From: a virus
Strand: one strand, 5' to 3'
Virus record (IMG/VR): IMGVR_UViG_3300028197_000025
Location: 1-47,158 of that record
DNA length: 47,158 nt
Of the stretch, positions 1,716 through 17,200 are shown piece after piece. The notes below the pieces were generated by a model, which was given only the letters and a program-made list of their open reading frames with translations, searched no databases and was not told where the DNA came from. Position 1 is the first letter of the stretch. Each line of letters begins with the position of its first letter. A program made the position numbers and the translations under genes.

Positions 1716-1801
1716 TAGGACTAGTCAGACTTGAACTGACAAAGATATTTAAATCTGACAGATTTTAAGTCTGTTGTGTTTACCAGTTTCACCATAGTCC
1801 T
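1716..1801 (-). tRNA. tRNA-Leu (anticodon UAA)
   Basis: On the minus strand AGGACTA pairs perfectly with TAGTCCT as acceptor stem. The anticodon stem-loop ACAGA-CTTAAAA-TCTGT gives anticodon UAA. There is a long class II variable arm, and the T arm GTCAG-TTCAAGT-CTGAC is intact. The CCA end is not encoded. It would decode UUA, rare in GC-rich Synechococcus hosts but common in this AT-rich phage. Confidence 0.95.
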
Positions 1802-1810
1802 TAATAATTA

Positions 1811-1838
1811 AATATAAAGTTTTCCACAGTTATGTGAA
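1811..1838 (-). promoter_or_regulatory. possible sigma70-like promoter before tRNA-Leu
   Basis: TTCACA (1833-1838), a 16-base spacer, then TATATT (1811-1816), 10 bases before the tRNA-Leu 5' end. The spacer contains a DnaA-box-like sequence, so protein binding there could repress it. The upstream AAGAACTT context is shared with the stronger promoter at 1948-1976. Confidence 0.45.
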
Positions 1839-1889
1839 GTTCTTAAATACTTAACTTTTAAGATTTCTGAGGTTTTTATAATTCCTCAG

Positions 1890-1936
1890 TTTCTACAGTT
1901 TCTGAGGTTCTATAAGTTTCTCAGAAACTGTAGAAA
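1890..1936. repeat. 17-bp perfect inverted repeat
   Basis: TTTCTACAGTTTCTGAG (1890-1906) and its exact reverse complement (1920-1936) flank a 13-base loop. TTTCTGAGG also occurs as a direct repeat at 1864 and 1900, and CCTCAG at 1884 and 1937. There is no T-run, so it is not an ordinary terminator. It lies in the candidate origin region downstream of two promoters and would fold in the transcript leader. Confidence 0.8.
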
Positions 1937-1947
1937 CCTCAGTTATC

Positions 1948-1976
1948 ATCATACTACAGAACTGAGTGTTTGTCAA
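1948..1976 (-). promoter_or_regulatory. strong sigma70-like early promoter
   Basis: TTGACA (1971-1976), a 17-base spacer, TATGAT (1948-1953) on the minus strand. It is the second of two near-consensus promoters in tandem and would transcribe the inverted repeat, tRNA-Leu and the 1662-1105 genes. Confidence 0.7.
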
Positions 1977-2035
1977 GTTCTTAGAAATTCCTCGGAAAGC
2001 CTCATAGGGACTGACCTTTGAAACCCTACAGAGTT

Positions 2036-2064
2036 ATTATAATACATTCGGAGAGTCTTGTCAA
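2036..2064 (-). promoter_or_regulatory. consensus sigma70-like early promoter
   Basis: TTGACA (2059-2064), exactly 17 bases, TATAAT (2036-2041) on the minus strand. Both hexamers are full consensus, which fits host-RNA-polymerase early transcription right after infection. Confidence 0.8.
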
Positions 2065-2265
2065 GTGCCAACTGTGAGAACCTTCTGACATGTTTGTGAA
2101 GTTCTTATACTATGGGTTGACAATCGGTAGGATGCACGCTAAGACGGTAAGGCATCCGCACATTATCAAGTATTTCACACATTTATCCACACTTATCCAC
2201 AGGCATGTGGAAAACTTAAGTATATTTAAAATGACATTTAAATCACACGGTAAATACCCTCCAAG

Positions 2266-2940
2266 TCACTTAGAATGCTCTTCCCAGTCACTTCGTTGCA
2301 CACCAACTGCCTCATTAATCATCCACCAACCAGTCATAATATACTTGGTTTGATTGATAGGCGGAACACCACGATGAACATAAGTCCATGATGCGGGAAA
2401 CAATAATAGATGACCTTGCTTAGGTTGAATCTTTGTTCCATCATAGAACTCAGTATACCCATCATTCTCTTCATCAATAGTATTCATATAATAGATGTAT
2501 GAGATACCACGATAATACCCACTCATATTACCACCTAACATATACCTATCATCACTATGCCAATGAAAGTAACCACCAGGATCAGTACGTTGTATATTAT
2601 ATCCTGTCATCCTTGCTTCACTACGCATGAATGGATAAACTAAATTATGATTCTTCTCTTGTAATAGACTATCATACAAATCTAATTGTTCGTATGTTAT
2701 GTCAGAGATATAATTATGTTCTTTAAAGTAATTGGTGGCAGATGATATATGTAAGTCAGTTGATAGTTTAATTGGAGTATTGACCTTAGACTGTGATACC
2801 GTAGTTTCATTAAGAGCATATCCACTACCTGTAACACCAGCATGTTTATTACTATCTCTCTCAAACTTACGAATAAGATTATTCAAGAATGTATGATCTA
2901 GAACTGGGGCATCACTATAATAAATGTTATTATGAAACAT
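2266..2940 (-). CDS. 2-oxoglutarate/Fe(II)-dependent oxygenase
   Basis: 224 residues with a double-stranded beta-helix pattern. Iron ligands are visible as H128-x-D130 in FHWHSDD and a distal H189 in YVHRGVP; K199 or nearby residues would hold 2-oxoglutarate. The segment DGYTEFYDGTKIQPKQGHLL... with LFPASW is typical of prolyl-4-hydroxylase-like members. The substrate (protein, nucleic acid or small molecule) cannot be told from sequence. It is the last gene of the chain that begins at 4491. Six such enzymes occur in this window, all divergent from one another. Confidence 0.88.
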   Translation of the reverse strand: MFHNNIYYSDAPVLDHTFLNNLIRKFERDSNKHAGVTGSGYALNETTVSQSKVNTPIKLSTDLHISSATNYFKEHNYISDITYEQLDLYDSLLQEKNHNLVYPFMRSEARMTGYNIQRTDPGGYFHWHSDDRYMLGGNMSGYYRGISYIYYMNTIDEENDGYTEFYDGTKIQPKQGHLLLFPASWTYVHRGVPPINQTKYIMTGWWMINEAVGVQRSDWEEHSK

Positions 2941-5595: not shown

Positions 5596-6163
5596 CGGTC
5601 TTTGTGCCAGTTTGGGAACTGTCACAGGACCACTGGACAATGGGGCGAGCAATGGCAGTCTGCATCAGTGCTGCAACGTTGGTGCAGATGTAATCATCAT
5701 TACCTCCACTCTGTCCACCCTGTTGCACATTGAATAAGCAATCATCACTCTTGAGATGTGCTTCAAAATCTTCTTTAGTGATGTAGAAGATACGAACATC
5801 CGCATCAGATGGATTAATTCCGCAGAAGATGAGGCGTTCCCAGTCCTTACATACGGAAACATGATTGATGATGAACTTATCAACGATCACACCACCTTTT
5901 TTAGCGCGAGTGGCGATAGAGAACTTAATCTCTGTGAGGATATTACTGATCACACGATCATGTCCTGCCGTAGATGTTGCGGCACGTTTGACTTCACAGA
6001 ACATAGTCTCCATGAACTTAGACACAAAACGCTCACCAAACTCACCCTTTTGCTTAGGTGACATAAACACATAACCCTCAAAGGGTGTGCCTACCCAAGG
6101 ATCACTCAGATTGCTCTCAACATAAGAGCGAAGACTACCATCAGCGAAAAGATTGTCAAACAT
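5579..6163 (-). CDS. PD-(D/E)XK-like nuclease candidate
   Basis: 194 residues from MFDNLFADGSLRSYVES. Conserved-looking acidic and basic residues follow nuclease order: GEFGERFVSKFME, then GHDRVISN and LTEIKFS, compatible with E...D...ExK of restriction-endonuclease folds. An ATG 33 bases upstream (6196) exists, but the promoter -10 lies over it and AAGG sits 6 bases before the chosen ATG. The last codons (CDSSQTGTK) are encoded by a copy of the TGTGCCAGTT repeat, so the C-terminus may be an add-on. The target, host DNA or phage DNA processing, is unknown. Confidence 0.65.
   Translation of the reverse strand: MFDNLFADGSLRSYVESNLSDPWVGTPFEGYVFMSPKQKGEFGERFVSKFMETMFCEVKRAATSTAGHDRVISNILTEIKFSIATRAKKGGVIVDKFIINHVSVCKDWERLIFCGINPSDADVRIFYITKEDFEAHLKSDDCLFNVQQGGQSGGNDDYICTNVAALMQTAIARPIVQWSCDSSQTGTKTVGIAA
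5603..5626. repeat. near-complete TGTGCCAGTT-N4-AACTG(T)CACA element inside a gene
   Basis: TGTGCCAGTTTGGGAACTGTCACA is the most symmetric copy in the window, with one mismatch between arms. It lies in the coding 3' end of the nuclease gene, while other copies follow stop codons. Confidence 0.65.
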
Positions 6164-6186
6164 GAGTGCCTTGCGTTGATACAGAT

Positions 6187-6215
6187 AGTATGGCATAAAA
6201 AAAGCACCCTGTCAA
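6187..6215 (-). promoter_or_regulatory. promoter embedded in a terminator
   Basis: TTGACA (6210-6215) forms the loop and part of the stem of the hairpin at 6204-6221, then 17 bases and CATACT (6187-6192, 4 of 6 matches). It would transcribe the nuclease gene. Terminator and promoter share DNA. Confidence 0.5.
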
Positions 6216-6221
6216 GGGTGC
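6197..6221 (-). terminator. intrinsic terminator
   Basis: GCACCCT-TGAC-AGGGTGC hairpin (6204-6221) followed by seven Ts on the minus strand (6203-6197). It ends transcription arriving from the 6234-6431 gene, 12 bases upstream. Confidence 0.85.
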
Positions 6222-6225
6222 TGAA

Positions 6226-6248
6226 CCAGTTCATTAAGTGTCACAGGG
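6226..6248. repeat. TGTGCCA-family element in opposite orientation
   Basis: CCAGTTCATTAAGTGTCACAGGG on the plus strand, closely matching the copy at 14237-14259 read on the minus strand. It overlaps the stop codon of the 6234-6431 gene and is followed directly by the intrinsic terminator. Confidence 0.6.
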
Positions 6249-6431
6249 GGGCTTGTCAATTGGGGTTAATCTGTCCCACCATTGTGGATAGATCACTAGA
6301 TTAGTCGGACCAACTGTCAATGTAACATAGTTACCACCAACATCATCAATGAAGTTTATTACTCCAACATGTTCAATACCATTGGTAGTGTAGGCATATC
6401 CGTCTCCCTTTACAAAATCACTAATCTTCAT
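6234..6431 (-). CDS. small beta-barrel-like hypothetical protein
   Basis: 65 residues: MKISDFVKGDGYAYTTNGIE, then HVGVINFIDDVGGNYVTLTV. The pattern of short strands around glycines resembles SH3-like barrels. It overlaps the upstream gene by 11 bases. Last gene of the 8.4-6.2 kb chain. Not recognised. Confidence 0.7.
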   Translation of the reverse strand: MKISDFVKGDGYAYTTNGIEHVGVINFIDDVGGNYVTLTVGPTNLVIYPQWWDRLTPIDKPPCDT

Positions 6432-6648
6432 ATACTAAACACTCAGGTTCTGATGGGTTAGCATCACAATACAGTTCTAATGGTGATGGATCATGATGAT
6501 CACCTGCTTCAATCTCTGCCTTGTGATGTTCTACATAATCTTCCAGTTCATGCAACTCACCTTCAATATGGCGACGTTGATTGGGTGAGATCATGGGATT
6601 GTCAAGGATTTCTTTGTCCTTCGCAATATGAGATTCTATGTTCTCCAT
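6421..6648 (-). CDS. acidic helical hypothetical protein
   Basis: 75 residues, MENIESHIAKDKEILDNPMI... with a predicted helical hairpin (NQRRHIEGELHELEDYVEHH). It carries a His/Asp segment AGDHHDPSP and two cysteines near the end (YCDANPSEPECLVYED). No function can be assigned. Confidence 0.7.
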   Translation of the reverse strand: MENIESHIAKDKEILDNPMISPNQRRHIEGELHELEDYVEHHKAEIEAGDHHDPSPLELYCDANPSEPECLVYED

Positions 6649-6680
6649 ATTTTTGGTAATAGTGAGCGTAAACTTATGTA

Positions 6681-6857
6681 TTATTTATCTGAGGTTTGCT
6701 CAGACTGTAGACATTTTACCATAAGATGGGAAAAACGTTCCATTTTGTTGTGATGTACTGACGCAGGATGTTCTTTAAGTGCTTGTCGTAATGCATTGAG
6801 TTCCTCCAGTTCATTAGGAGTTAATGTACTACAGCGATCTGCTGGCAAGAATGACAT
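6681..6857 (-). CDS. small hypothetical protein
   Basis: 58 residues: MSFLPADRCSTLTPNELEEL, then NALRQALKEHPASVHHNKM and ERFSHLMVKCLQ. A helical pair is likely. The stop overlaps a TATTTAT motif. It is separated from its neighbours by about 30-40 bases. Not recognised. Confidence 0.65.
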   Translation of the reverse strand: MSFLPADRCSTLTPNELEELNALRQALKEHPASVHHNKMERFSHLMVKCLQSEQTSDK

Positions 6858-6897
6858 GTCGTGATTTTGATTATGTTAGTATCCTAACATATCTAGG

Positions 6898-7077
6898 TCA
6901 CTTACCCTGTTCTTCTAACAATGTCGTAAGATTTGTAGAAATCACTTCTTGAATTTCTTGCTGACTAAGACCGTTCAACCAACTCCATTTAGGATCTTTA
7001 TCATCCCACTGAAGTTTCATCTGATGTGTGACATCATCGTATTCTACGAGCAGTGAATCATCTTCGTGATTAGTCAT
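6898..7077 (-). CDS. small acidic hypothetical protein
   Basis: 59 residues: MTNHEDDSLLVEYDDVTHQM, then KLQWDDKDPKWSWLNGLSQ. The ATG overlaps the end of the 7070-7210 gene. The WDDKDPKWSWLNGLS segment is distinctive but unplaced. Confidence 0.65.
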   Translation of the reverse strand: MTNHEDDSLLVEYDDVTHQMKLQWDDKDPKWSWLNGLSQQEIQEVISTNLTTLLEEQGK

Positions 7078-7210
7078 TAGATTCCTCTTGTTTTTTTAAT
7101 TGTTTCTTGATTAGTTTAGCATAGATAACTTCTTCCTGGGTATACCAGTCAGGATGTTTCTTAGATCGTTTGATTATCTTTTTGATTGCTTTTTTATCGG
7201 ATAAGTCCAA
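7070..7210 (-). CDS. small lysine-rich protein with TTG start
   Basis: 46 residues: (M)DLSDKKAIKKIIKRSKKHP, then DWYTQEEVIYAKLIKKQLKK. A stop codon lies two codons before the TTG at 7210 and no ATG is available, so TTG is the only start. It is strongly basic with a DWYT(Q/K)EE motif that I recall from cyanophage small proteins. Nucleic-acid binding is plausible but unproven. Confidence 0.6.
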   Translation of the reverse strand: MDLSDKKAIKKIIKRSKKHPDWYTQEEVIYAKLIKKQLKKQEESND

Positions 7211-7236
7211 AGATTAGTATTAAATATTTTAAGTAT

Positions 7237-7863
7237 TTAACACTTTTTCTTCTCAAGATAGATATTAAACGAAAATGTTAGACGTTGAACGTCTTCTTTT
7301 AGGTTTCCGCATTTGACTCCATGATTTAAATGTGGGGGAAATAATACTATATCACCATCAATAAAATTCATGGGCATAAATTCCTTATAATATTCAGAGA
7401 GATTAGATTTCACATAAGGAAACTGTTGTTGTGTCCTCCAGGCAAAGTCATGATTGGCAAAGAAAAATGATCCTGGATCACAATTCTGTGCAAAGTATAC
7501 ACCAGACCATAATGGGTTCTGATCATTATGCATACTCAAATGATTATGCACCTCTTGTCCCTGTCCCTTACGGTAAGCGTTATACCAAAAGCATTCATAT
7601 TCAACCTTAGTAGGAATATTGTATTTCAACAATGTCCTCCTAATGTCAAACATGATATCTTCTTTGAGACTATCCCTTGTCTCCTGATTGACATAAGGAT
7701 CATCATCCTGAATTAAAGGAAATGACGTATTAAGAGGAACTAACCAATTTGATGGTTTACGATCAACTTTGTCCCAAGTATCAAACATTCCAGCATACTT
7801 TGCATGTTTGCTGAAATTGATTTTAATAACAGGAGTAGAGAATAGAGGTACAATCTTACTCAC
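7237..7863 (-). CDS. 2OG-Fe(II) oxygenase-like protein
   Basis: 208 residues. EVHNHLS near residue 104 gives the first metal-binding histidines, H181 in PPHLNHGVK is the distal ligand, and R194 in QRLTFSFN fits the 2-oxoglutarate salt bridge. The layout matches the putative 2OG-Fe(II) oxygenase family common in cyanophages (PF13759-type). The usual HxD is replaced by HxH, as in that family. It starts 4 bases into the end of the preceding gene. Substrate unknown. Confidence 0.82.
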   Translation of the reverse strand: MSKIVPLFSTPVIKINFSKHAKYAGMFDTWDKVDRKPSNWLVPLNTSFPLIQDDDPYVNQETRDSLKEDIMFDIRRTLLKYNIPTKVEYECFWYNAYRKGQGQEVHNHLSMHNDQNPLWSGVYFAQNCDPGSFFFANHDFAWRTQQQFPYVKSNLSEYYKEFMPMNFIDGDIVLFPPHLNHGVKCGNLKEDVQRLTFSFNIYLEKKKC

Positions 7864-8126
7864 AACTTAACACCTTGGGTACTATTGACAACTCTAGTGT
7901 ATAGATGTAGTGTACCCTCCTGTTCACATTTAAGATGCCAACGTGTCATAATAGTGACACCATCTTTAGTGCCACCAGTCATCATCTGACGACCTTGTTT
8001 AGTCATTGATGAATACAAACCATAACGAGTCTCCCAAACATAGAATACATCATCAATGAGTTCTGCACCATCAGGAACTTTAATTTCTTGGTTCTGTTGC
8101 TCCGATAGTTGCTTTTCTTCTGTCAA
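7860..8126 (-). CDS. conserved small hypothetical protein
   Basis: 88 residues, MTEEKQLSEQQNQEIKVPDG with a beta-rich body (FYVWETRYGLYSS, MTRWHLKCEQEGTLHLYTR). It overlaps the 8080-8397 gene by 47 bases in another frame. Both frames look coding at their distinct ends. Not recognised. Confidence 0.65.
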   Translation of the reverse strand: MTEEKQLSEQQNQEIKVPDGAELIDDVFYVWETRYGLYSSMTKQGRQMMTGGTKDGVTIMTRWHLKCEQEGTLHLYTRVVNSTQGVKL

Positions 8127-8397
8127 CTTTATACCTCTCTATGTGTGTGTTCATGTGACCTTCACATTGGAAATAACAATTTCTGTTACTACCATCAATA
8201 TCCTTATAGTGGAGATGGTAAGGAAATACCATATGAAATCCTCCTTCCGTACAACGAGGAGGATCAATTACGGGTCCGCGTGGTACACGAACTTTCTTAG
8301 TTTTAGGTGCCTCAGTTTTTTTAGGGCGTCCTGGTTTGCGTTTGGTGGTATCACCATCAGCAGCAATAGTGTTGCCTTTGCGATTACGAATTGCCAT
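8080..8397 (-). CDS. basic protein with an AT-hook-like motif
   Basis: 105 residues. KRKPGRPKK (about residues 19-27) matches the AT-hook core GRP flanked by basic residues, which binds the minor groove of AT-rich DNA. A more ordered part follows (FPYHLHYKDIDG, CYFQCEGHMNTHIERYKVD) with scattered Cys and His. I recall similar proteins from cyanophages. A DNA-associated role is inferred from the hook only. Confidence 0.7.
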   Translation of the reverse strand: MAIRNRKGNTIAADGDTTKRKPGRPKKTEAPKTKKVRVPRGPVIDPPRCTEGGFHMVFPYHLHYKDIDGSNRNCYFQCEGHMNTHIERYKVDRRKATIGATEPRN

Positions 8398-8403
8398 GAT
8401 GAA

Positions 8404-8970
8404 TTAATAAGATTTGATGTTGAATGATATTACCATCCGTTCATGTTCATTAGGTAGAACCTTATGATACAGTTCAGATGGGAAGATTATAACATGACCC
8501 TCAGTTAAATAGTGAGTGTCATGCATAAACCTTTGGTAAGTTTGATTTGCTGCACCACAACCAAAGAAAATAGTTTTATTAGGTTCTGTGGAGTGTAAGA
8601 TGTAGATACCAGAGAACGTACAATTACCATGAGTATGTTCTTTGTGATGACCACTTCTTTTATAGTATTGATACCACAACTCTGTGATAGAAGATCTTCT
8701 AGTTGGATTACGAATCTCAAATGGCATTTGTGCAAGCATATTATCCAGTGGATCCCAAACAATATGATCTAAAAAACCCTTTGTATTAATGAAATTATAG
8801 AAGTAAGCATCTTTATCATGGTAAGAACTATATGCTCTCTCAACGGGAGAATCAATCTCATTTCTAGCATCATCTTTAATAAAAGAAACTATGCTGTCTT
8901 TAATCTCTGAGTGGTTGCTTACTTTAGTGATGTAAAGAAAGGGACCAGGGAATAAAACAAAATTACTCAA
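8404..8970 (-). CDS. 2OG-Fe(II) oxygenase-like protein, TTG start
   Basis: 188 residues. H112 and H114 in HKEHTHGNC, H169 in SELYHKVLP and R178 in ERMVISFN mark the metal and cosubstrate sites of the same family as the 7237-7863 protein. The frame opens with TTG at 8970, overlapping the TAA of the AbrB-like gene (TTGAGTAA). No ATG occurs in frame until far inside the domain, so TTG is taken as start. Substrate unknown. Confidence 0.8.
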   Translation of the reverse strand: MSNFVLFPGPFLYITKVSNHSEIKDSIVSFIKDDARNEIDSPVERAYSSYHDKDAYFYNFINTKGFLDHIVWDPLDNMLAQMPFEIRNPTRRSSITELWYQYYKRSGHHKEHTHGNCTFSGIYILHSTEPNKTIFFGCGAANQTYQRFMHDTHYLTEGHVIIFPSELYHKVLPNEHERMVISFNIKSY

Positions 8971-9118
8971 TTTTCCTTAGTGTGAATGATTCATCTGGAT
9001 TAACTAACCATTCCAGTTTATCTCCGGGTTTCCAACCTAATTGATTTAACAGATCTTCAGGTATAGTAAGCACACCTTCGTCATCAACAGGAACAGTATA
9101 CCTATTGTTATTAGTCAT
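8963..9118 (-). CDS. AbrB/SpoVT-like small protein
   Basis: 51 residues. YTVPVDDEGVLTIPEDLLNQ followed by LGWKPGDKLEW is the swapped-hairpin barrel signature of AbrB/SpoVT-type domains. In bacteria these bind DNA as dimers, often as antitoxins or transition-state regulators. No toxin partner is next to it. It overlaps both neighbours (TGATG before, TTGAGTAA after). It may regulate phage or host genes; that is inference. Confidence 0.72.
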   Translation of the reverse strand: MTNNNRYTVPVDDEGVLTIPEDLLNQLGWKPGDKLEWLVNPDESFTLRKIE

Positions 9119-9294
9119 CAGTCAGAAGCTCTCCATTCGTTCGTCTTTGTTGCTTGTTTTTCTTGGAACTGCTCAACTAACTGAAGAATTTTATATGATC
9201 TCTCCTGTGCTATCGCTTCATTCCATTCTTTTTGATTAAAAGATCTGCGAAGTTCTTTTGAAATTGCTTCAAGTAACATATGATAGTGTGTCAT
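9118..9294 (-). CDS. small helical hypothetical protein
   Basis: 58 residues, MTHYHMLLEAISKELRRSFN with one long charged helix (EWNEAIAQERSYKILQLVE). Its leader carries a TATAAT box 23 bases upstream, so it heads the 9.3-6.2 kb chain. Not recognised. Confidence 0.65.
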   Translation of the reverse strand: MTHYHMLLEAISKELRRSFNQKEWNEAIAQERSYKILQLVEQFQEKQATKTNEWRASD

Positions 9295-9313
9295 TGCGGG
9301 TAGACAACTAATA

Positions 9314-9325
9314 GTAATTATAACA
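9314..9325 (-). promoter_or_regulatory. extended -10 promoter
   Basis: Minus-strand TGTTATAAT (-10 at 9317-9322) with no convincing -35. It lies just after the stop of the 9331-9849 oxygenase gene and before the 9294 start. Confidence 0.45.
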
Positions 9326-9330
9326 CATCT

Positions 9331-9849
9331 TTACACCCAAATATGCAAGACTATAATTTTCTTGATACCTTCTATAACAGGACAACCACGATGAGGAAAT
9401 GTAAATGAAGATGGGAATATAACTGTCTTTCCTGATTCTGGTACGATCAACTGATCTTCAAACTCTGTCTCACCACCTTTAAAGTCATCATTCAAATATG
9501 TTATTGATGAAATAATCCTCCCCCAATCGGTATTCACTGGATGCGTTGCATCACCATCATGATGCCAGTTATACTGTTGGTTTACATTATACAGACTTAA
9601 CCTTGCATCAATAGAATATCCATGAGAGACAGATTTAATCAATTGAGCGGCAACTCTATCTGATAGAGAGTTTACATATTGACCGATCAATAGGGATGGA
9701 TCAGGATAATCATCACTAATGTCTACCAGTTCACGATCACCATTACCGGGAAATGATTGTTCACCCTTCCAGTCATTAAACATTTCACGATAGCGACATA
9801 AGTGTGCCTCTGACCAAACCTCACCATAAAATATATTACTGTTCCTCAT
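9331..9849 (-). CDS. 2OG-Fe(II) oxygenase (prolyl hydroxylase-like)
   Basis: 172 residues. H96-x-D98 in NWHHDGD, H153 in FPHRG, and K163/K164 after IEGI in place of the usual Arg or Lys for 2-oxoglutarate. The segment ITYLNDDFKGGETEFEDQ is the classical P4H-like core. It is short, so mostly the catalytic barrel. It overlaps the membrane-protein gene by 14 bases. Substrate unknown. Confidence 0.88.
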   Translation of the reverse strand: MRNSNIFYGEVWSEAHLCRYREMFNDWKGEQSFPGNGDRELVDISDDYPDPSLLIGQYVNSLSDRVAAQLIKSVSHGYSIDARLSLYNVNQQYNWHHDGDATHPVNTDWGRIISSITYLNDDFKGGETEFEDQLIVPESGKTVIFPSSFTFPHRGCPVIEGIKKIIVLHIWV

Positions 9850-10057
9850 TGTCTTTCATAATTTTTTTATATCTACGCTTCATCATCCACGTATCAAATT
9901 TAATCCGTGGATACATACGAGCAATGAAAAGGAGACGACGGATGTTTATCCATGCTCCCCGTACTTGTAAGTCAATGTAAAGTGATGCGTTGGGTTCAGT
10001 AAAAATTAAATAAGCAAAGATAGCAACCACCACAAAAATGGTGTATTGGTATATCAT
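9836..10057 (-). CDS. small membrane protein
   Basis: 73 residues from MIYQYTIFVVVAIFAYLIF, one clear N-terminal transmembrane helix followed by a basic cytoplasmic tail (MKRRYKKIMKDNEEQ). The longer frame start is rejected because the ATG at 10057 overlaps the preceding stop (ATGA). Function is unknown. Confidence 0.7.
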   Translation of the reverse strand: MIYQYTIFVVVAIFAYLIFTEPNASLYIDLQVRGAWINIRRLLFIARMYPRIKFDTWMMKRRYKKIMKDNEEQ

Positions 10058-10239
10058 TGCTCGCTCAATACCTCCAGGCACATGACATCAATATCTTTCT
10101 CATTGTTATAATCCATGAACCACTCACCGAATTCTTCTGCCAGTGCTTTAGCATTTTCGGTTTCTCCTGCATCCAAGGCAGCACCAATAAGACCATCAAT
10201 GTCGCAAAGAATGTCTTCAACTTGATTAAGATTATTCAT
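10054..10239 (-). CDS. small acidic helical protein
   Basis: 61 residues: MNNLNQVEDILCDIDGLIGA, then ALDAGETENAKALAEEFGEW. Two amphipathic helices, resembling tetratricopeptide-like or partner-binding small proteins. Not recognised. It follows tRNA-Ser. Confidence 0.68.
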   Translation of the reverse strand: MNNLNQVEDILCDIDGLIGAALDAGETENAKALAEEFGEWFMDYNNEKDIDVMCLEVLSEQ

Positions 10240-10277
10240 GAAAAAAAAGCGAAGGATTTAGTGGAGTTAAACTCCAA

Positions 10278-10365
10278 CGGAGAGGGTGGGATTTGAACCC
10301 ACGGATGCTACTAACATCTCTAGTTTTCAAGACTAGCGCGATCAGCCGGGCTCTGCCACCACTCC
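10278..10365 (-). tRNA. tRNA-Ser (anticodon UGA)
   Basis: Minus strand GGAGTGG...CCTCTCC forms the acceptor stem with one U-U mismatch. The anticodon arm CTAGT-CTTGAAA-ACTAG gives UGA. A long variable arm and T arm GTGGG-TTCAAAT-CCCAC are present. No CCA is encoded. It reads UCA codons. The mismatch might weaken aminoacylation or be corrected by modification. Confidence 0.93.
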
Positions 10366-10390
10366 AATAAAAGAGAGACCGTAGTCTCTC
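10366..10390 (-). terminator. intrinsic terminator after the beta-barrel gene
   Basis: GAGAGAC-TACG-GTCTCTC (10390-10373 read on minus) followed by TTTTATT, 13 bases after the 10404 stop and directly before tRNA-Ser. The UACG tetraloop is unusually stable. Confidence 0.8.
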
Positions 10391-10403
10391 AGAGTTAATT
10401 AGA

Positions 10404-10778
10404 TCAGAAGTTGTACTTCACACCCAATTTACCAGCATATCCACGGTCAAGATCTTCGTCACCTGAACCGACGAATGAAACTTCACCATATGCACCGAGT
10501 GCTTCAGTCAGACTCAAACCAAGACCTGCCTTACCTGAAGGAACGGTGTCAGCATCACCACCGTCAGGAGTCAGCACGGTAGCACCACCCTGAACGTAGT
10601 AAGAACCTGTGTCACTGAAGGCACCTTCGTACCCTACGTGAACGTCCGTTCCAGCACCGTTGTACTCTGATCCAGTCCAACCGGCATTGGTTTCTACGTT
10701 GACGTAGGGACCGGCTAGGGCAGCTGCAGGAGCGAATGCAATAGCGGCGGCTGCAGCTGCAATAGTCGTTTTAAACAT
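10404..10778 (-). CDS. secreted beta-barrel-like protein
   Basis: 124 residues. An N-terminal signal peptide (MFKTTIAAAAAAIAFAPAAALA) is followed by GPYVNVETNAGWTG and alternating beta strands, ending in LGVKYNF, with the terminal Phe typical of outer-membrane proteins sorted by the BAM complex. It is too short for more than about six to eight strands. It has its own late-type promoter, 5' stem and terminator, so it is probably highly expressed. The role may be host envelope modification or superinfection exclusion; that is inference. Confidence 0.82.
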   Translation of the reverse strand: MFKTTIAAAAAAIAFAPAAALAGPYVNVETNAGWTGSEYNGAGTDVHVGYEGAFSDTGSYYVQGGATVLTPDGGDADTVPSGKAGLGLSLTEALGAYGEVSFVGSGDEDLDRGYAGKLGVKYNF

Positions 10779-10839
10779 TGAAATAATTCTCCGTAGTGAA
10801 TAGTTTGTAAGTATGTCTTAGCGTTATGCTAGGACGATT

Positions 10840-10847
10840 TATTTATT
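10840..10847 (-). promoter_or_regulatory. T4-type late promoter
   Basis: Minus strand AATAAATA, 7 of 8 to TATAAATA, within the last bases before and overlapping the end region of cobS. A TAGC/GCTA mini-hairpin follows and CGGAG lies 11 bases before ATG of the beta-barrel gene. Confidence 0.55.
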
Positions 10848-10850
10848 GTA

Positions 10851-11960
10851 TCAGAAAGTCTGTGGACTGTCAACCTTTTCGGTTTCCACACCAACGCTAG
10901 CGTCAAGTTTATCATACAACTCAATGAAAGACTGTTTAGTCTCATCATCAAAGCGGTTGACACAAACCTCAATAGACTTCATACGCTTACCAAAAATTTT
11001 GAATGCATGGATGATGTGGACCAGGCGACGTGTTGAGATCACTTCATCAATGCCTCCGTCATTGAAGGTCTTACGAATAATATCTGCCCACTGAGCAAGT
11101 TTCTCACAGAACTCACGATCTTCCAGACCAAGATCAAGAGAAACACCTTCAAGGATGCGCTGCTCAATCTTAGGTGTAGGATAGTCCTGCTCAAAGGTAA
11201 GAGCAAAACGCTCAAGAAATGCTTCATTCAGTACATTAGTACCGATGAAACGACCGTCATCAGAACCCTTACCTTTAGTATTGGCAGTGGCGATGACATT
11301 GAAACCAGCAGAGGGTTTTACATATTGACCAGTCTTCTTGAGGAATACACCTTTGCCCTCAAGAATTGATTGGAGACACATAATTTTATTGCTGGCAAGA
11401 TCAATCTCATCCAACAACAGAATAGCGCCGCGCTCCAATGCTTCAATCACAGGACCATTGTGCCAAACAGTGTTACCATTAATTAAACGGAAACCACCGA
11501 TCAAGTCATCCTCATCAGTTTCAATGGTAAGGTTGACACGAATAAGTTCACGACCAAGTGCAGCACATGCTTGCTCTACACTGAAAGTTTTACCATTACC
11601 AGATAAACCAGTGATAAACACAGGGTAAAAGATGTTAGAAGAAATAATCTTCTTGAGATCACCATAGTTACCAAAAGGGACGAAGGTATCATCTTTAGAT
11701 GGTACTAAGTTTTGTGTGATCGGTTCAACTACAATAGGAGCAGAAGGTGCTTCATATGTTTGCTCAAGTTTTTCTTGAACTGAAAGATTCCACTTGCCAT
11801 AACCGACCTTGTACTTATCAATACGCTTCATGATAGTAGGATAAGACACACCAAACTCGCTCGCGGCAGAGCGAACAGCACTAGCACCAAACTCATCACC
11901 GTGGTGAGTTGAGATGAATGCAGTCAGAGCGTTCATGTCAATGTTAATCTTGCGGGGCAT
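10851..11960 (-). CDS. cobS: CobS-like AAA+ ATPase (MoxR type)
   Basis: 369 residues. Walker A GLSGNGKT (about 118-125), Walker B AILLLDEID (about 179-187), sensor-1-like NVIATANT, and arginine-rich C-terminal lid (STRRLVHIIHAF). In bacteria CobS is the ATPase subunit of aerobic cobaltochelatase, inserting cobalt into the corrin ring with CobN and CobT. The first 60 residues form a helix-turn-helix-like head (SAASEFGVSYPTIMKRID) not typical of chelatase. The CobT-like gene lies immediately upstream, so the pair may act as a MoxR-VWA chaperone system. No CobN-like large subunit is seen here. Confidence 0.9.
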   Translation of the reverse strand: MPRKINIDMNALTAFISTHHGDEFGASAVRSAASEFGVSYPTIMKRIDKYKVGYGKWNLSVQEKLEQTYEAPSAPIVVEPITQNLVPSKDDTFVPFGNYGDLKKIISSNIFYPVFITGLSGNGKTFSVEQACAALGRELIRVNLTIETDEDDLIGGFRLINGNTVWHNGPVIEALERGAILLLDEIDLASNKIMCLQSILEGKGVFLKKTGQYVKPSAGFNVIATANTKGKGSDDGRFIGTNVLNEAFLERFALTFEQDYPTPKIEQRILEGVSLDLGLEDREFCEKLAQWADIIRKTFNDGGIDEVISTRRLVHIIHAFKIFGKRMKSIEVCVNRFDDETKQSFIELYDKLDASVGVETEKVDSPQTF

Positions 11961-12000
11961 GTGCTTTGGTTGTGAACAATGTTAATATACAGTATTTGGA

Positions 12001-12038
12001 GGGTCATGGGTGAGACCCTGTGCCACTTTACAAACTGG
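12001..12038. repeat. TGTGCCA element with hairpin after the CobT-like gene
   Basis: GGGTC...GACCC hairpin (12001-12018) abutting CCCTGTGCCACTTTACAAACTGG (12016-12038). On the minus strand it starts right after the TGA of the CobT-like gene and ends about 40 bases before cobS. Confidence 0.6.
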
Positions 12039-14183
12039 TCAGGAGATCAGCGTGGCGAACGAAGAGAGAAGTTTCTTGTTTGTAGTTTTCTTTCTCAGAT
12101 TGTCGCGAAATGCTTTACGAACCTGAGCAACACTAGCATCATCAGAAACTTCAAATGTAGTTTCTGCAGATATACTTGTGCTGGAAATGGCATAGAACGC
12201 ATCATAACCTGTAGGAGTCATCTCTAATGACTTAAACTTACGCCAGTTCTTCATATCATTTTCCGGCATATCAACATATGAACGGATGCTATTAACGTAA
12301 CGATAGAAGCGACTGAATTCAGAACCAGAACAGATACGGAATCCCAGAATGTTAACATCAGGGTTGCGATCCTTCAGGTTTTGAAGCAGAATAGCGGTCA
12401 AAGATTCGCTATAGTCACCACCCCATGTGGAGAATTGTTTGTATGTACGACCAATTTTACGATCACGTAATGTAGCAGAACCATTACAACGATGACGACC
12501 GAGATTGTTTGCTCCATAGGGATAGTCATAATTATAAGCAAGATCGCAACCTTCGCCATCAGTCAAGATAACAACATTTACTTTCTGAAGTTTGTTGACA
12601 TTCTTGAATTGAGGTACAATACTATTAAGTGCAATAATACTTTCATTCAAAGGTGTGCCAGATAACCCCAGACCATGAGGACAACGATAAGCACAAGAAT
12701 GACGGTAACTATAAGCACAACGGAAAAGATTTAAACACTGTTCATCAAATTGCTTAGAGTTAGTACGGGAACTAAGCAAATTCAACAGAGAAAAATTCTT
12801 AGAAATATCAAACGTACCTGCTTTCTTTTCTGCTTTATACTCAAAGTGATCACGTTCAGGATCAAGAATATTAGGATACCATTCATTGGTAAAAGCATAG
12901 ACTTCAAAAGGAATCTGTACTTTCTTACAGAACCATGTAAGATTGATCAGTTGTTTAACAGTATCCATCAGTACATCAACCATAGAACCTGACCAGTCCA
13001 GAACAAAGATCATGCCATGATTCTTACCATCAGGAAGTGCAGTTACTTTTTTGAAAAGATCTTCATTGTACTTATAAGTATGAAGTGATTTAGTATCAAG
13101 AACACCAGTGCGTGATGTTGTCTGACGAGCATAAGCATCAGCAGACTTCTTACATTCAAACTCTTTTACAAGATAGTTTACTTCTTTCTGAGCAGACTTC
13201 TTGTATGTATTATATGCATTATCAACCTCCTCAAAAACATCCCCCCAGTGCTTAATACGCTCTGCGCGAACAGTAGCGAAGTTTTTAGTAATATAGGGAG
13301 TCAGAACTTTAGAATCAACAATGATCTTATCCATATACAATTCAGGCAGTTCCACATACTCAGTCTGGTTAGCATACTCAGACTGATTAGCAAGATCCTC
13401 AGCATTCTCATCAAAGGCACGTTGAGTCATAGACTCATTCTCATCATAAGTATCAGCGGCACCATTATTATAAGAAGGTGTATCTAAATCAGCACGATCA
13501 CCATCTTGATTAGTCTCTTCACCCTGAACCTCTCCCTGTGGATTCTCTTCCTCTCCTTGTTCTTCTTCTTCAGTGTCACCCTGCTGACCTTGTGGTTGAG
13601 GGGGCATAGGAGCGGGTGTCTGTTGCTTCTCCTGCTCTTTCAGGTAGTCAACAATATCTTCACAGATAGCAAGAACTTCTTCAAATGTCTCAGCATCACC
13701 TACACGAGCAACAAATTGCTGCTCAATATCATTGGCGAAAGGAATCATAGCGAAAGAACCAACCTTGAAATGAAGGTTGATACGATCAATGAACGACAAC
13801 TGTTCAGCGTTGATTTCTTGAATCTCAAAGAAGTCCTGATCATTCAGTTCTTCATATCCTTGATAGAAACTACGAGAGAGACCAGGAAACTTACGCTTCA
13901 TAAGTTTCTCAATACGAGCATCCTCAACAACATTCACAAAGTCTTTAGGAACATTGTTACGAACAGACTCACGCCAATCAATATCAGGAGTGTATAATGC
14001 ATGTCCTACCTCATGCCCCACCAGCATATCGTATACGGTCGCTGACGCCTTATCCCAGACAGGTAAGGTCAGAACACGGCGAAGAGTATCAAATGACGCT
14101 GTAGGCACCGTGCGATGCTCAACGATAAGATTCTCGGTGGCAAGCAGTTTGGCAAGATTGCCTTTGATCTCCTGATTAATCAT
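12039..14183 (-). CDS. CobT-like VWA protein with HExxH metallopeptidase head
   Basis: 714 residues. Residues 57-61 are HEVGH followed by NVVEDARIEKL (third ligand Glu near 87), a gluzincin-like zinc site. A Glu/Gln-rich disordered linker covers about 185-250. A VWA domain begins near 390 with the MIDAS motif D396-W-S-G-S400 (FVLDWSGSM). This order, metalloprotease-acidic linker-VWA, matches cyanophage proteins annotated as peptidase or CobT-like. With cobS next door it is best seen as the VWA partner of a MoxR ATPase. Whether it makes a chelatase or a protease/assembly machine is unresolved. Start ATG has AGAGGA 6 bases upstream. Confidence 0.88.
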   Translation of the reverse strand: MINQEIKGNLAKLLATENLIVEHRTVPTASFDTLRRVLTLPVWDKASATVYDMLVGHEVGHALYTPDIDWRESVRNNVPKDFVNVVEDARIEKLMKRKFPGLSRSFYQGYEELNDQDFFEIQEINAEQLSFIDRINLHFKVGSFAMIPFANDIEQQFVARVGDAETFEEVLAICEDIVDYLKEQEKQQTPAPMPPQPQGQQGDTEEEEQGEEENPQGEVQGEETNQDGDRADLDTPSYNNGAADTYDENESMTQRAFDENAEDLANQSEYANQTEYVELPELYMDKIIVDSKVLTPYITKNFATVRAERIKHWGDVFEEVDNAYNTYKKSAQKEVNYLVKEFECKKSADAYARQTTSRTGVLDTKSLHTYKYNEDLFKKVTALPDGKNHGMIFVLDWSGSMVDVLMDTVKQLINLTWFCKKVQIPFEVYAFTNEWYPNILDPERDHFEYKAEKKAGTFDISKNFSLLNLLSSRTNSKQFDEQCLNLFRCAYSYRHSCAYRCPHGLGLSGTPLNESIIALNSIVPQFKNVNKLQKVNVVILTDGEGCDLAYNYDYPYGANNLGRHRCNGSATLRDRKIGRTYKQFSTWGGDYSESLTAILLQNLKDRNPDVNILGFRICSGSEFSRFYRYVNSIRSYVDMPENDMKNWRKFKSLEMTPTGYDAFYAISSTSISAETTFEVSDDASVAQVRKAFRDNLRKKTTNKKLLSSFATLIS

Positions 14184-14211
14184 GCGTTCCTCTCAACTGA
14201 CACTAGTATAA

Positions 14212-14259
14212 AGGGTGGACCCCATAGAGGAGACCACCCTGTGCCAGTTCATGAACTGG
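14212..14259. repeat. TGTGCCAGTT element with 7-bp hairpin after the fibre gene
   Basis: AGGGTGG (14212-14218) pairs with CCACCCT (14234-14240), which runs into GTGCCAGTTCATGAACTGG (14241-14259). The second part is itself a perfect palindrome CCAGTTCATGAACTGG. Minus strand order: fibre stop, palindrome, GGCACAGGG, second hairpin, then TATACT and the CobT-like gene. Confidence 0.7.
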
Positions 14260-14269
14260 TTTTGATTGA

Positions 14270-17200
14270 TCAGAGCTTCATAATATAAAGGAGAGCATAG
14301 TATGGTGGTGTCACGCTGAATGTAACCGAGTGTGTGTGAGTGGTATTACTAAGTGTAACACTTCCAGAAAGCTGGAAACCGTGCTCGTGGGTTTCATTAT
14401 TTACTCCCCAATCTTGCCCATTACCACTCTTTCTATCAGGGGTCACGTTATCAATTGGAACAGTTCCAGTAATTGCTCCACCACCTCCAGGGGTTGTGTT
14501 TTTTGTCTCGGACTCATATGATCCATCACCGCTCTTCTCACCATGTTCTTCACTACCCTGATTATCTGTTAAGTATTTGTCCACATAGCTGTGGAAGTGA
14601 GGTGGTGCAGTACCAGTAATAGCTCCATGTCCATGGTTAATGCCATGGTTATGATATGGTAGTTGACCTACGGTCAGTCCGTGACCCTGCACATCACCCG
14701 CCAGAGTATTAGTAATAGATGCTTTGATATTATTGTCTGCAGTGGTGACTGTATAAGAAGTAGTACCACCAGTAGAGTTTGTAGCATAACTACTTCCTGA
14801 CCCAACAATAAATCTATCTCTTAAATCAGGAGTCGTCACACTCGCCCCTTCCTTATTGACATATGTGGAACCGTTACAAACTACCCAACCATTAGGAGTT
14901 CCTCCACCAGACCACATTGCGATAATACCAGATTGAACGCCATACTTGGTCAATAAGTGTTCAGCGCCTGAATTAAGTTCTCCCGTATTATCTCCACCAC
15001 TCCAACCAACACCAGCACTAAAGTCTGCGTATGGGCTGCCATCAAAAACGAAGGCATTGCTTCCTGTGTTTTTGTTCCAATCATTAGGAGTAATACGAAG
15101 GGAACCCATTCTACATCTCGCTAATCTACCATATGGAGCATCAAAGCTGTTAGTTTCATTGATATTATCATTATTATTTGGAGCATCCATGAAGAACCTA
15201 AAGTTCATTCCCGAAACATCATAAATCATGTATGCTGATTTTTCTCCTACTCCAGTGGACCAGTAGTGAGATCCATCATCATAATACTTAAGTTCAAGAC
15301 CTCTATCTTTTGTATCATTAACAGTAAGAGTAGCACCGTTTACGCCGCCACCAAGTGTAATGATAGGATCTATAATTCTTGATACAGTAGAATTAACAGT
15401 GGTAGTTGTACCATTAACTACAAAATTACCATCAACATGAAGATTATTGTTGATTCTTGTAGTACCAGTTGAAGCACCAAAGTTTAAGTTAGTAGCACCA
15501 GTGAAAGCATTAACTTCCTGAGTAGCAAAATTAACCGTGTTAGGTGTAGTCATGAAGTTAGCAACTTCTGCCGTCACAGTGGCATTGAATGTCTTAGAAC
15601 CAGTAGTTCCAGTATCAAACTTACCAGAGAATTCAACATCACTCTTAATAACAAGTTTATCACTCATGAGTGTTGTAACAGAAGTTCCTCCTGTTGTTCC
15701 AGCACCATTAGGAGCATTAGAAGCAGCAATGTTTAGTGTTGTCGCACCAGTAGAGAAATTAACATCGGTAGAACTATTAGTATAGTTGAATGTAGAAGAG
15801 GAAGTGGTAAGATCACCACCATTAATAGCAAGATCTCCTGTGATTACTCCATCACCACCGACACTAAGATTATTTTCAAACAAAACATCACCAGTACCAA
15901 CATGAAGTGATGCAGTTGGAGTATCTTGGTTGATACCAAACTTACCAGTAACTTCATAAGGTTGCTCATCCAACATACCACCAACGACTTGGCTATAAGT
16001 TTCTTCAATAGAAGTTAAATGTCCAGTACCAACTAGACCAGTATGTCTCCATCCAGCGTTAAGTAAATTACCTTGACCATTTTTGAGATCATCACCAACA
16101 TAAATGTATCCTTCATGTCTAGTGTCTACATTGATCTTGTTCTTATAGTAATGGTCGCCCAGGAAAGTAGACTCAACACCTACAACAGGTGTTTTGTTCG
16201 TATTCATGTACGCCATCTGCTTAATATTACCGTTTAGAGTTGGCACTCCAAGGGCAAAACCTTTAGGACGTAGATTAAGATCATGAGAAATAAGTGCTCT
16301 GTTATTGTTTACAGGATCCTTAGTTGATATCTGAATACCCTCATTACACAATAATTCATTGTTAAATGTGTTAGGAACTTTGCTATCACCACCTTTTGTT
16401 ACAAGTGTTCCTTCAATCAGAACGTTTTTAGTTCCAGCGATAAAAGGAACGAATTCTGAATTAACAACAGCAGCAGATCCAGCAACCTTAAGGATTGGTT
16501 TATCAAGAATCTCAACTTCACCAGTAATAGCGTTAATCTTCTGATTACCAACATACAGATCACCATATGCGTTCAGACCAGAATAGAATACAACACCAGC
16601 ACGACGACGTTGTGACTGTGAATAAAGAACTTCTTTATCATTCAGAACTCTTTCTTGCTTAGAAGGAAAACCAGTTGAGTAGTTACCTGAACCGAAACCA
16701 GTGTATTCAAACGTCTGGTTACCAGCACGAACCTGTGATGTTCTTCTAAGTTCAATATCAATTTCAGCAAGATTGCTATCAAATGATATTAGTCTGTTTT
16801 CTTGACCTGATACTGCCTTTCCACTTTGAGCATTAAGACTTCCCACAAGGTTAGAGAATCCAGCATCAATTAAGAATGTATTAACTGCTTCTCTAGTGAC
16901 GGAAGATCTATCATCATCCTGATAAACAAGACCATGAATAAGGTTATCAGCAACCGAGACAGCAGCATCAGGGTTTCCATTAGGGTTATCCTTATCAAGA
17001 TCAGGATAAATCTTAGATACATCTTGTGAATACTTAAGGAATCCAAATGTATCTGTTGGTGAGTTAAACTGTTCCCCTTTAGGAGCAATATCACCAACTA
17101 GCATTGTCAAGTAATAGATACCATCTTGTTCACCAGGAATATGTGGTAAGATAGTATCTGATCTATAGACGAAGTAAACTCTATCAAGACCAGCGGTTTG

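Follow-up and report, generated by a model that had tools for sequence, protein, structure and literature searches.

A conserved DnaA-box cluster facing an antisense promoter in T4-like cyanophages, a candidate part of a replication-origin module

The intergenic locus and its sites

The window, meaning the whole 47,158-bp stretch of viral DNA that was analysed, holds the cluster in an intergenic gap that runs from a tRNA-Leu(TAA) gene (1716-1801, minus strand) to a 2OG-Fe(II) oxygenase gene (2266-2940, minus strand). The assignment of the DNA to a T4-like cyanophage in the earlier note is right, as gp32, gp59, an RNase H-like exonuclease, PhoH, a cobS-like gene, ThyX and baseplate genes are all present. 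An Rfam search matched two tRNAs and nothing else.

Four 9-mers resembling DnaA boxes had been listed at 1820, 2183, 2193 and 2206, with three of them inside 32 bp; all are found at these places (Table 1), as are two copies of the TTTCTGAGG repeat noticed in the AT-rich region. In the whole window TTWTCCACA occurs at these four sites only, all within 1820-2214, where dinucleotide-preserving shuffles gave a mean of 1.8 sites per window and a pair within 40 bp in 0 of 400. The looser TTWTNCACA is not over-represented across the window (6 found against 8.1 expected); the signal thus lies in the clustering and in the C at position 5, not in the total count. In the window the AT-rich block lies beyond the boxes as seen from the promoter, whereas in most other phages it lies between promoter and boxes. 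The outlying box is flanked on the minus strand by TTCACA (1833-1838) and TATATT (1811-1816), an arrangement kept in two close relatives (L145, L146), and this pair could be the promoter of tRNA-Leu.

The description of the gap as an early control region is half right, since the strong promoters on the tRNA and gene side point away from the boxes, while the promoter linked to the boxes faces them and runs against the genes. The latter has a weak -10 hexamer, TAAGAC; in the relatives its -35 is unchanged, its spacer is exactly 17 bp and its GCTAAGAC core is conserved. In the tandem TTGACA-N17-TATRAT promoters (1948-2064) the -35 and -10 hexamers are conserved and the spacers are divergent. The inverted repeat exists, but with a length of 18 bp rather than the 17 bp first given (1889-1906 and 1920-1937, 100% complementary), and is an adjunct outside the conserved module.

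Table 1. Coordinates of the features of the intergenic gap, in window positions
Feature	Position	Strand	Remarks
DnaA box TTTTCCACA, outlying	1820-1828	+	Kept in L145 and L146
18-bp perfect inverted repeat, 13-nt loop	1889-1937	.	Between the gene-side promoters and tRNA-Leu
Second sigma70 promoter, TTGACA-N17-TATGAT	1948-1976	-	Towards tRNA-Leu; conserved in L145/L146
Sigma70 promoter, TTGACA-N17-TATAAT	2036-2064	-	Towards tRNA-Leu; conserved in L145/L146
Sigma70-type promoter, TTGACA-N17-TAAGAC	2117-2145	+	Reads into the box array, antisense to the flanking genes
Leader, -10 to first box-like unit	2146-2170	+	From the alignment
Degenerate fourth box TATTTCACA	2171-2179	+	Reads TATTCCACA in relatives L145, L146
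DnaA box TTATCCACA	2183-2191	+	Aligned place is TTTTCCACA in relatives
DnaA box TTATCCACA	2193-2201	+	10 bp from the box at 2183-2191
DnaA box TTTTCCACA, inverted orientation	2206-2214	-	Identical in 4/4 relatives
AT-rich block beyond the boxes	2215-2243	.	Candidate unwinding element in the window's sub-group

A nucleotide search of cultured phages with the intergenic region matched only the tRNA-Leu, and the 2OG-oxygenase protein as a query gave no close relatives; these were reached through a neighbouring protein, which led to three records ~92% identical at the locus and one at ~80%. In the alignment the inverted box is invariant and the other boxes keep a TGTGGA core, with changes falling mostly at the A/T-tolerant end of the box and spacing shifts of 1-2 bp. 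In the 80% relative, the letters of the boxes are identical at 33 of 36 positions against 304 of 393 elsewhere.

The contig of a relative, G003 (L028 / L136-L144, 177,686 bp), has both its termini within the module, where the antisense promoter has its -10 (window 2137). Its ends join without a gap, giving a box spacing of 374 bp as in L026, and the chance of a contig break falling in this intergenic gap is ~0.3%. Such a break could have arisen from a choice made in assembly or from coverage, or it could mark a physical end.

Recurrence and architecture of the module

Looking in related phages for boxes conserved at this locus, which the earlier note proposed as a check, gave a strongly positive result, and this conservation makes chance matches very unlikely. 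If two or more boxes inside 40 bp are counted as a cluster, 10 of the 21 complete cyanophage records carry one (ACG-2014b, S-RIM2, S-IOM18, S-RIM12, S-PM2, Syn9, ACG-2014d, S-SM2, Syn1 and Syn33), and neither T4 in the same scan nor a reversed-motif control on the same cyanophage records gave any. Whole-record scanning of IMG/VR contigs selected by gp32 found tight clusters in further phages, often arranged as a box followed at 12 bp by a second and at a further 23 bp by an inverted one. A perfect cluster is absent from the other 11 of the 21 cyanophages, four of which (P-SSM4, P-HM1, S-CAM4 and S-MbCM7) retain the promoter without boxes; DnaA can therefore not be universally required, and may be an optional aid.

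The order of the module is a sigma70-type promoter, a leader of ~30 nt, usually an AT-rich block, and then two to four boxes. In nearly all clusters, G020 being the exception, TTGACA-N17-TAAGAC or a close variant lies 37-79 bp upstream of the first exact box and faces the boxes. The variants at 17-bp spacing include a -10 of TATTGT in G038 and of TAGAAT in S-SM2; further variants are a -35 of TTGTGT in Syn9 and a -10 of TTAGAC in ACG-2014b. The array of Syn9 is at 52.57-52.60 kb, with TAAGAC ~75 bp upstream of it on the minus strand.

As finding promoters by way of boxes would be circular, IMG/VR was also searched by the promoter alone, which yielded 43 distinct elements. Of these, 39 have one or more exact boxes in the 150 nt downstream and 36 have two or more, with boxes upstream in 7/43 and a reversed control giving 1. 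The downstream sites comprise 86 exact copies of TTTTCCACA against 28 with one mismatch, and TTTTCCACA is the published DnaA box of most cyanobacteria (PMC4674748). Spacings of 12 bp (tandem) and 23 bp (inverted) recur; the 12-bp tandem boxes are found in a subset (Syn1, S-PM2, G026 and G005), and others have an inverted pair only. The inverted boxes were considered as an RNA hairpin signal and set aside, as inversion is not a common feature (Syn1, ACG-2014d and G005 have direct repeats only).

A+T makes up 76-84% of the 20 nt preceding the first box, and 32/37 elements have, immediately 5' of the boxes, a block with at least 12 A+T in 14, compared with 21% of random 40-nt windows. The promoter is antisense to its surroundings: the flanks are antisense-dominant in 40/43 elements, an antisense ORF is present in 38/43, and a same-strand ORF of at least 60 aa within 500 nt of the promoter in 0/43. 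The module was located upstream of gp25-gp6, at a distance of 3-11.5 kb, in every genome in which these genes were found.

Some further arrays and annotations were noticed. ACG-2014d has another two boxes (L180 5690-5709), separated by 11 bp and 0.9 kb away from its main array, which lack the conserved promoter. In S-PM2 (L425 10177-10333) an annotated tRNA-Asn and tRNA-Leu(TAG) overlap the array and promoter, and these annotations may be doubtful. Clean triple TTATCCACA arrays are found in apparently non-coding DNA of other IMG/VR phages (L007, L008, L014-L018, L021, L023, L024). Scanning IMG/VR for tandem TTATCCACA-N-TTATCCACA matched other phages, none related to this locus. Like the module, such clusters hold TTATCCACA or TTTTCCACA in tandem on a phage sequence, but they differ in that the TTGACA-N17-TAAG promoter accompanies just 11 of 86 tandem sites. 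When whole bacterial genomes were scanned for tandem boxes, the matches came from diverse phyla, with the phage promoter at 0/85 sites.

A candidate origin compared with known origins

In the favoured reading, to which we give a probability of about 0.5, T4-like cyanophages would have a conserved replication-origin module in which the cluster is the part that binds DnaA. Host RNA polymerase would start at the early sigma70-type promoter (2117-2145, plus strand in the window), and a short non-coding transcript, antisense to phage genes, would run into the array of cyanobacterial DnaA boxes. Host DnaA bound at the array would help to open the adjoining AT-rich DNA, where the transcript could remain annealed as a leading-strand primer, and the phage replisome (gp59/gp41/gp43) would be loaded at the array; in later rounds, replication would presumably switch to the recombination-dependent mode as in T4. 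Extended to the group as a whole, the tentative proposal is that T4-like cyanophages begin replication at a host-DnaA-dependent, transcript-primed origin at the place of T4 oriE.

In layout and place the candidate module resembles T4 oriE, which has an early sigma70 promoter antisense to genes, nearby repeats and a location upstream of the baseplate gene 6, and the phage of the window shares T4-like replisome genes with T4. In the T4 annotation oriE is on the (-) strand ~1.7 kb upstream of gene 6, and its primer RNA is complementary to the transcript of gene 5; the origin depends on its early promoter (PMC3016281). For the RepEA/RepEB genes of oriE, the comparison covered ORFs of at least 60 aa, of which no element has one on the promoter strand within 500 nt. 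Unlike the module, oriE has no DnaA boxes; its own repeats, a 24-bp-period array inside gene 5, were considered as DnaA-box homologues and rejected as unrelated in sequence.

Cyanobacterial oriC, as in S. elongatus, Anabaena and Cyanothece, shares with the module the clustered TTTTCCACA 9-mer (PMC4674748), and DnaA is essential in S. elongatus and binds oriC there (PMC7198777). The module differs in not lying beside dnaN, in having only 2-4 boxes, in being promoter-linked and antisense, and in belonging to the genome of a lytic phage that has a replisome of its own. AT-rich DNA alongside the boxes is usual for oriC. For the T4-like cyanophage Syn9, a single theta origin has been predicted (Weigele et al. 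2007, cited in PMC2984593), which has in common with the present reading the idea of one discrete origin; the review names neither a place for it nor DnaA boxes.

The composition of the leader, rich in A, T and C with G at 10.5%, is unlike classic R-loop-prone DNA and counts against an origin, as do the weak -10 TAAGAC, the place of the AT-rich block in the window, the promoters kept without boxes and the lack of DnaA boxes among the oriE repeats. GC skew lends the origin no support, with no switch at the element in Syn9, Syn33 or G003, though nearly all genes are co-oriented, which masks such a switch. A natural deletion in S-PM2d was considered as a knockout and set aside, as it covers 5,799-15,339 and leaves the element at 19.23-19.35 kb intact.

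Competing explanations and implications

The main rival, though an unlikely one, is a DnaA-controlled transcription switch with no replication start at this place. DnaA on the boxes, 40-80 bp beyond the antisense promoter, would form a roadblock and make the antisense RNA respond to free host DnaA; by way of that RNA, the early genes that lie upstream of gp25-gp6 would respond too. Nearly every array is faced by a promoter, which in four phages survives without boxes, the boxes in many cases overlap or adjoin an antisense ORF at its 3' end, and antisense transcription in Kyanoviridae is mentioned in the literature (PMC10976474), all of which would suit such a switch. Against it stand the origin-like A+T block next to the boxes in 32/37 elements and the antisense genes, which differ between phages and so provide no common target; nor does a roadblock need 12-bp periodic multi-box arrays. 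Less likely again is a phage-encoded initiator or regulator of the iteron type, for which the DnaA-box match would be coincidental: iteron-like spacing, box-less cyanophages that may use other sites and the oriE repeats of T4, which have no known binder (PMC3016281), are in keeping with it, but the cyanobacterial DnaA box is matched at all nine positions and in mixed orientations, with T or A at position 3 (TTTT/TTAT) as the general DnaA consensus allows.

A titration site similar to datA, which would soak up host DnaA and slow host replication, is improbable to a still greater degree. In its favour, several high-consensus boxes that fit the host consensus are carried on a genome that turns multicopy; with just 2-4 boxes per genome the effect before phage replication would be small, and titration would explain neither the promoter that goes with the boxes nor the way it points, nor the AT-rich block and the fixed place. 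A chance cluster of common AT-rich 9-mers agrees with the lack of enrichment of the looser motif over the whole window, yet the shuffles and the control motif were negative and the cluster recurs in many divergent phages beside the same promoter, and this conservation refutes it. The options raised in the earlier note (origin, repressor or decoy) can thus be partly ranked. A decoy needs neither a promoter nor a fixed geometry, and the antisense promoter, the usual AT-rich block, the absence of a downstream gene and the oriE-like place favour an origin.

A full-text search of the literature for cyanophage and 'DnaA box' returned, by title and abstract, host-genome studies only, and DnaA goes unmentioned in the comparison of 26 genomes by Sullivan et al. 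(2010; PMC3037559). In the literature surveyed, the original Syn9 genome and transcriptome papers aside, cyanophage origins are unmapped, and an earlier report may exist. The module offers a precise candidate place for the first cyanophage origin, and it bears on the old question of the role of the T4 oriE repeats. DnaA boxes are unexpected in these phages, as T4-type replication is regarded as DnaA-independent.

Cyanophages are among the most abundant marine viruses, and in their picocyanobacterial hosts the cell cycle is tied to light. A conserved DnaA-box module would tie viral replication to the host cell cycle and, if the origin reading is true, the replication of a lytic phage would be coupled to the host's own licence to initiate.
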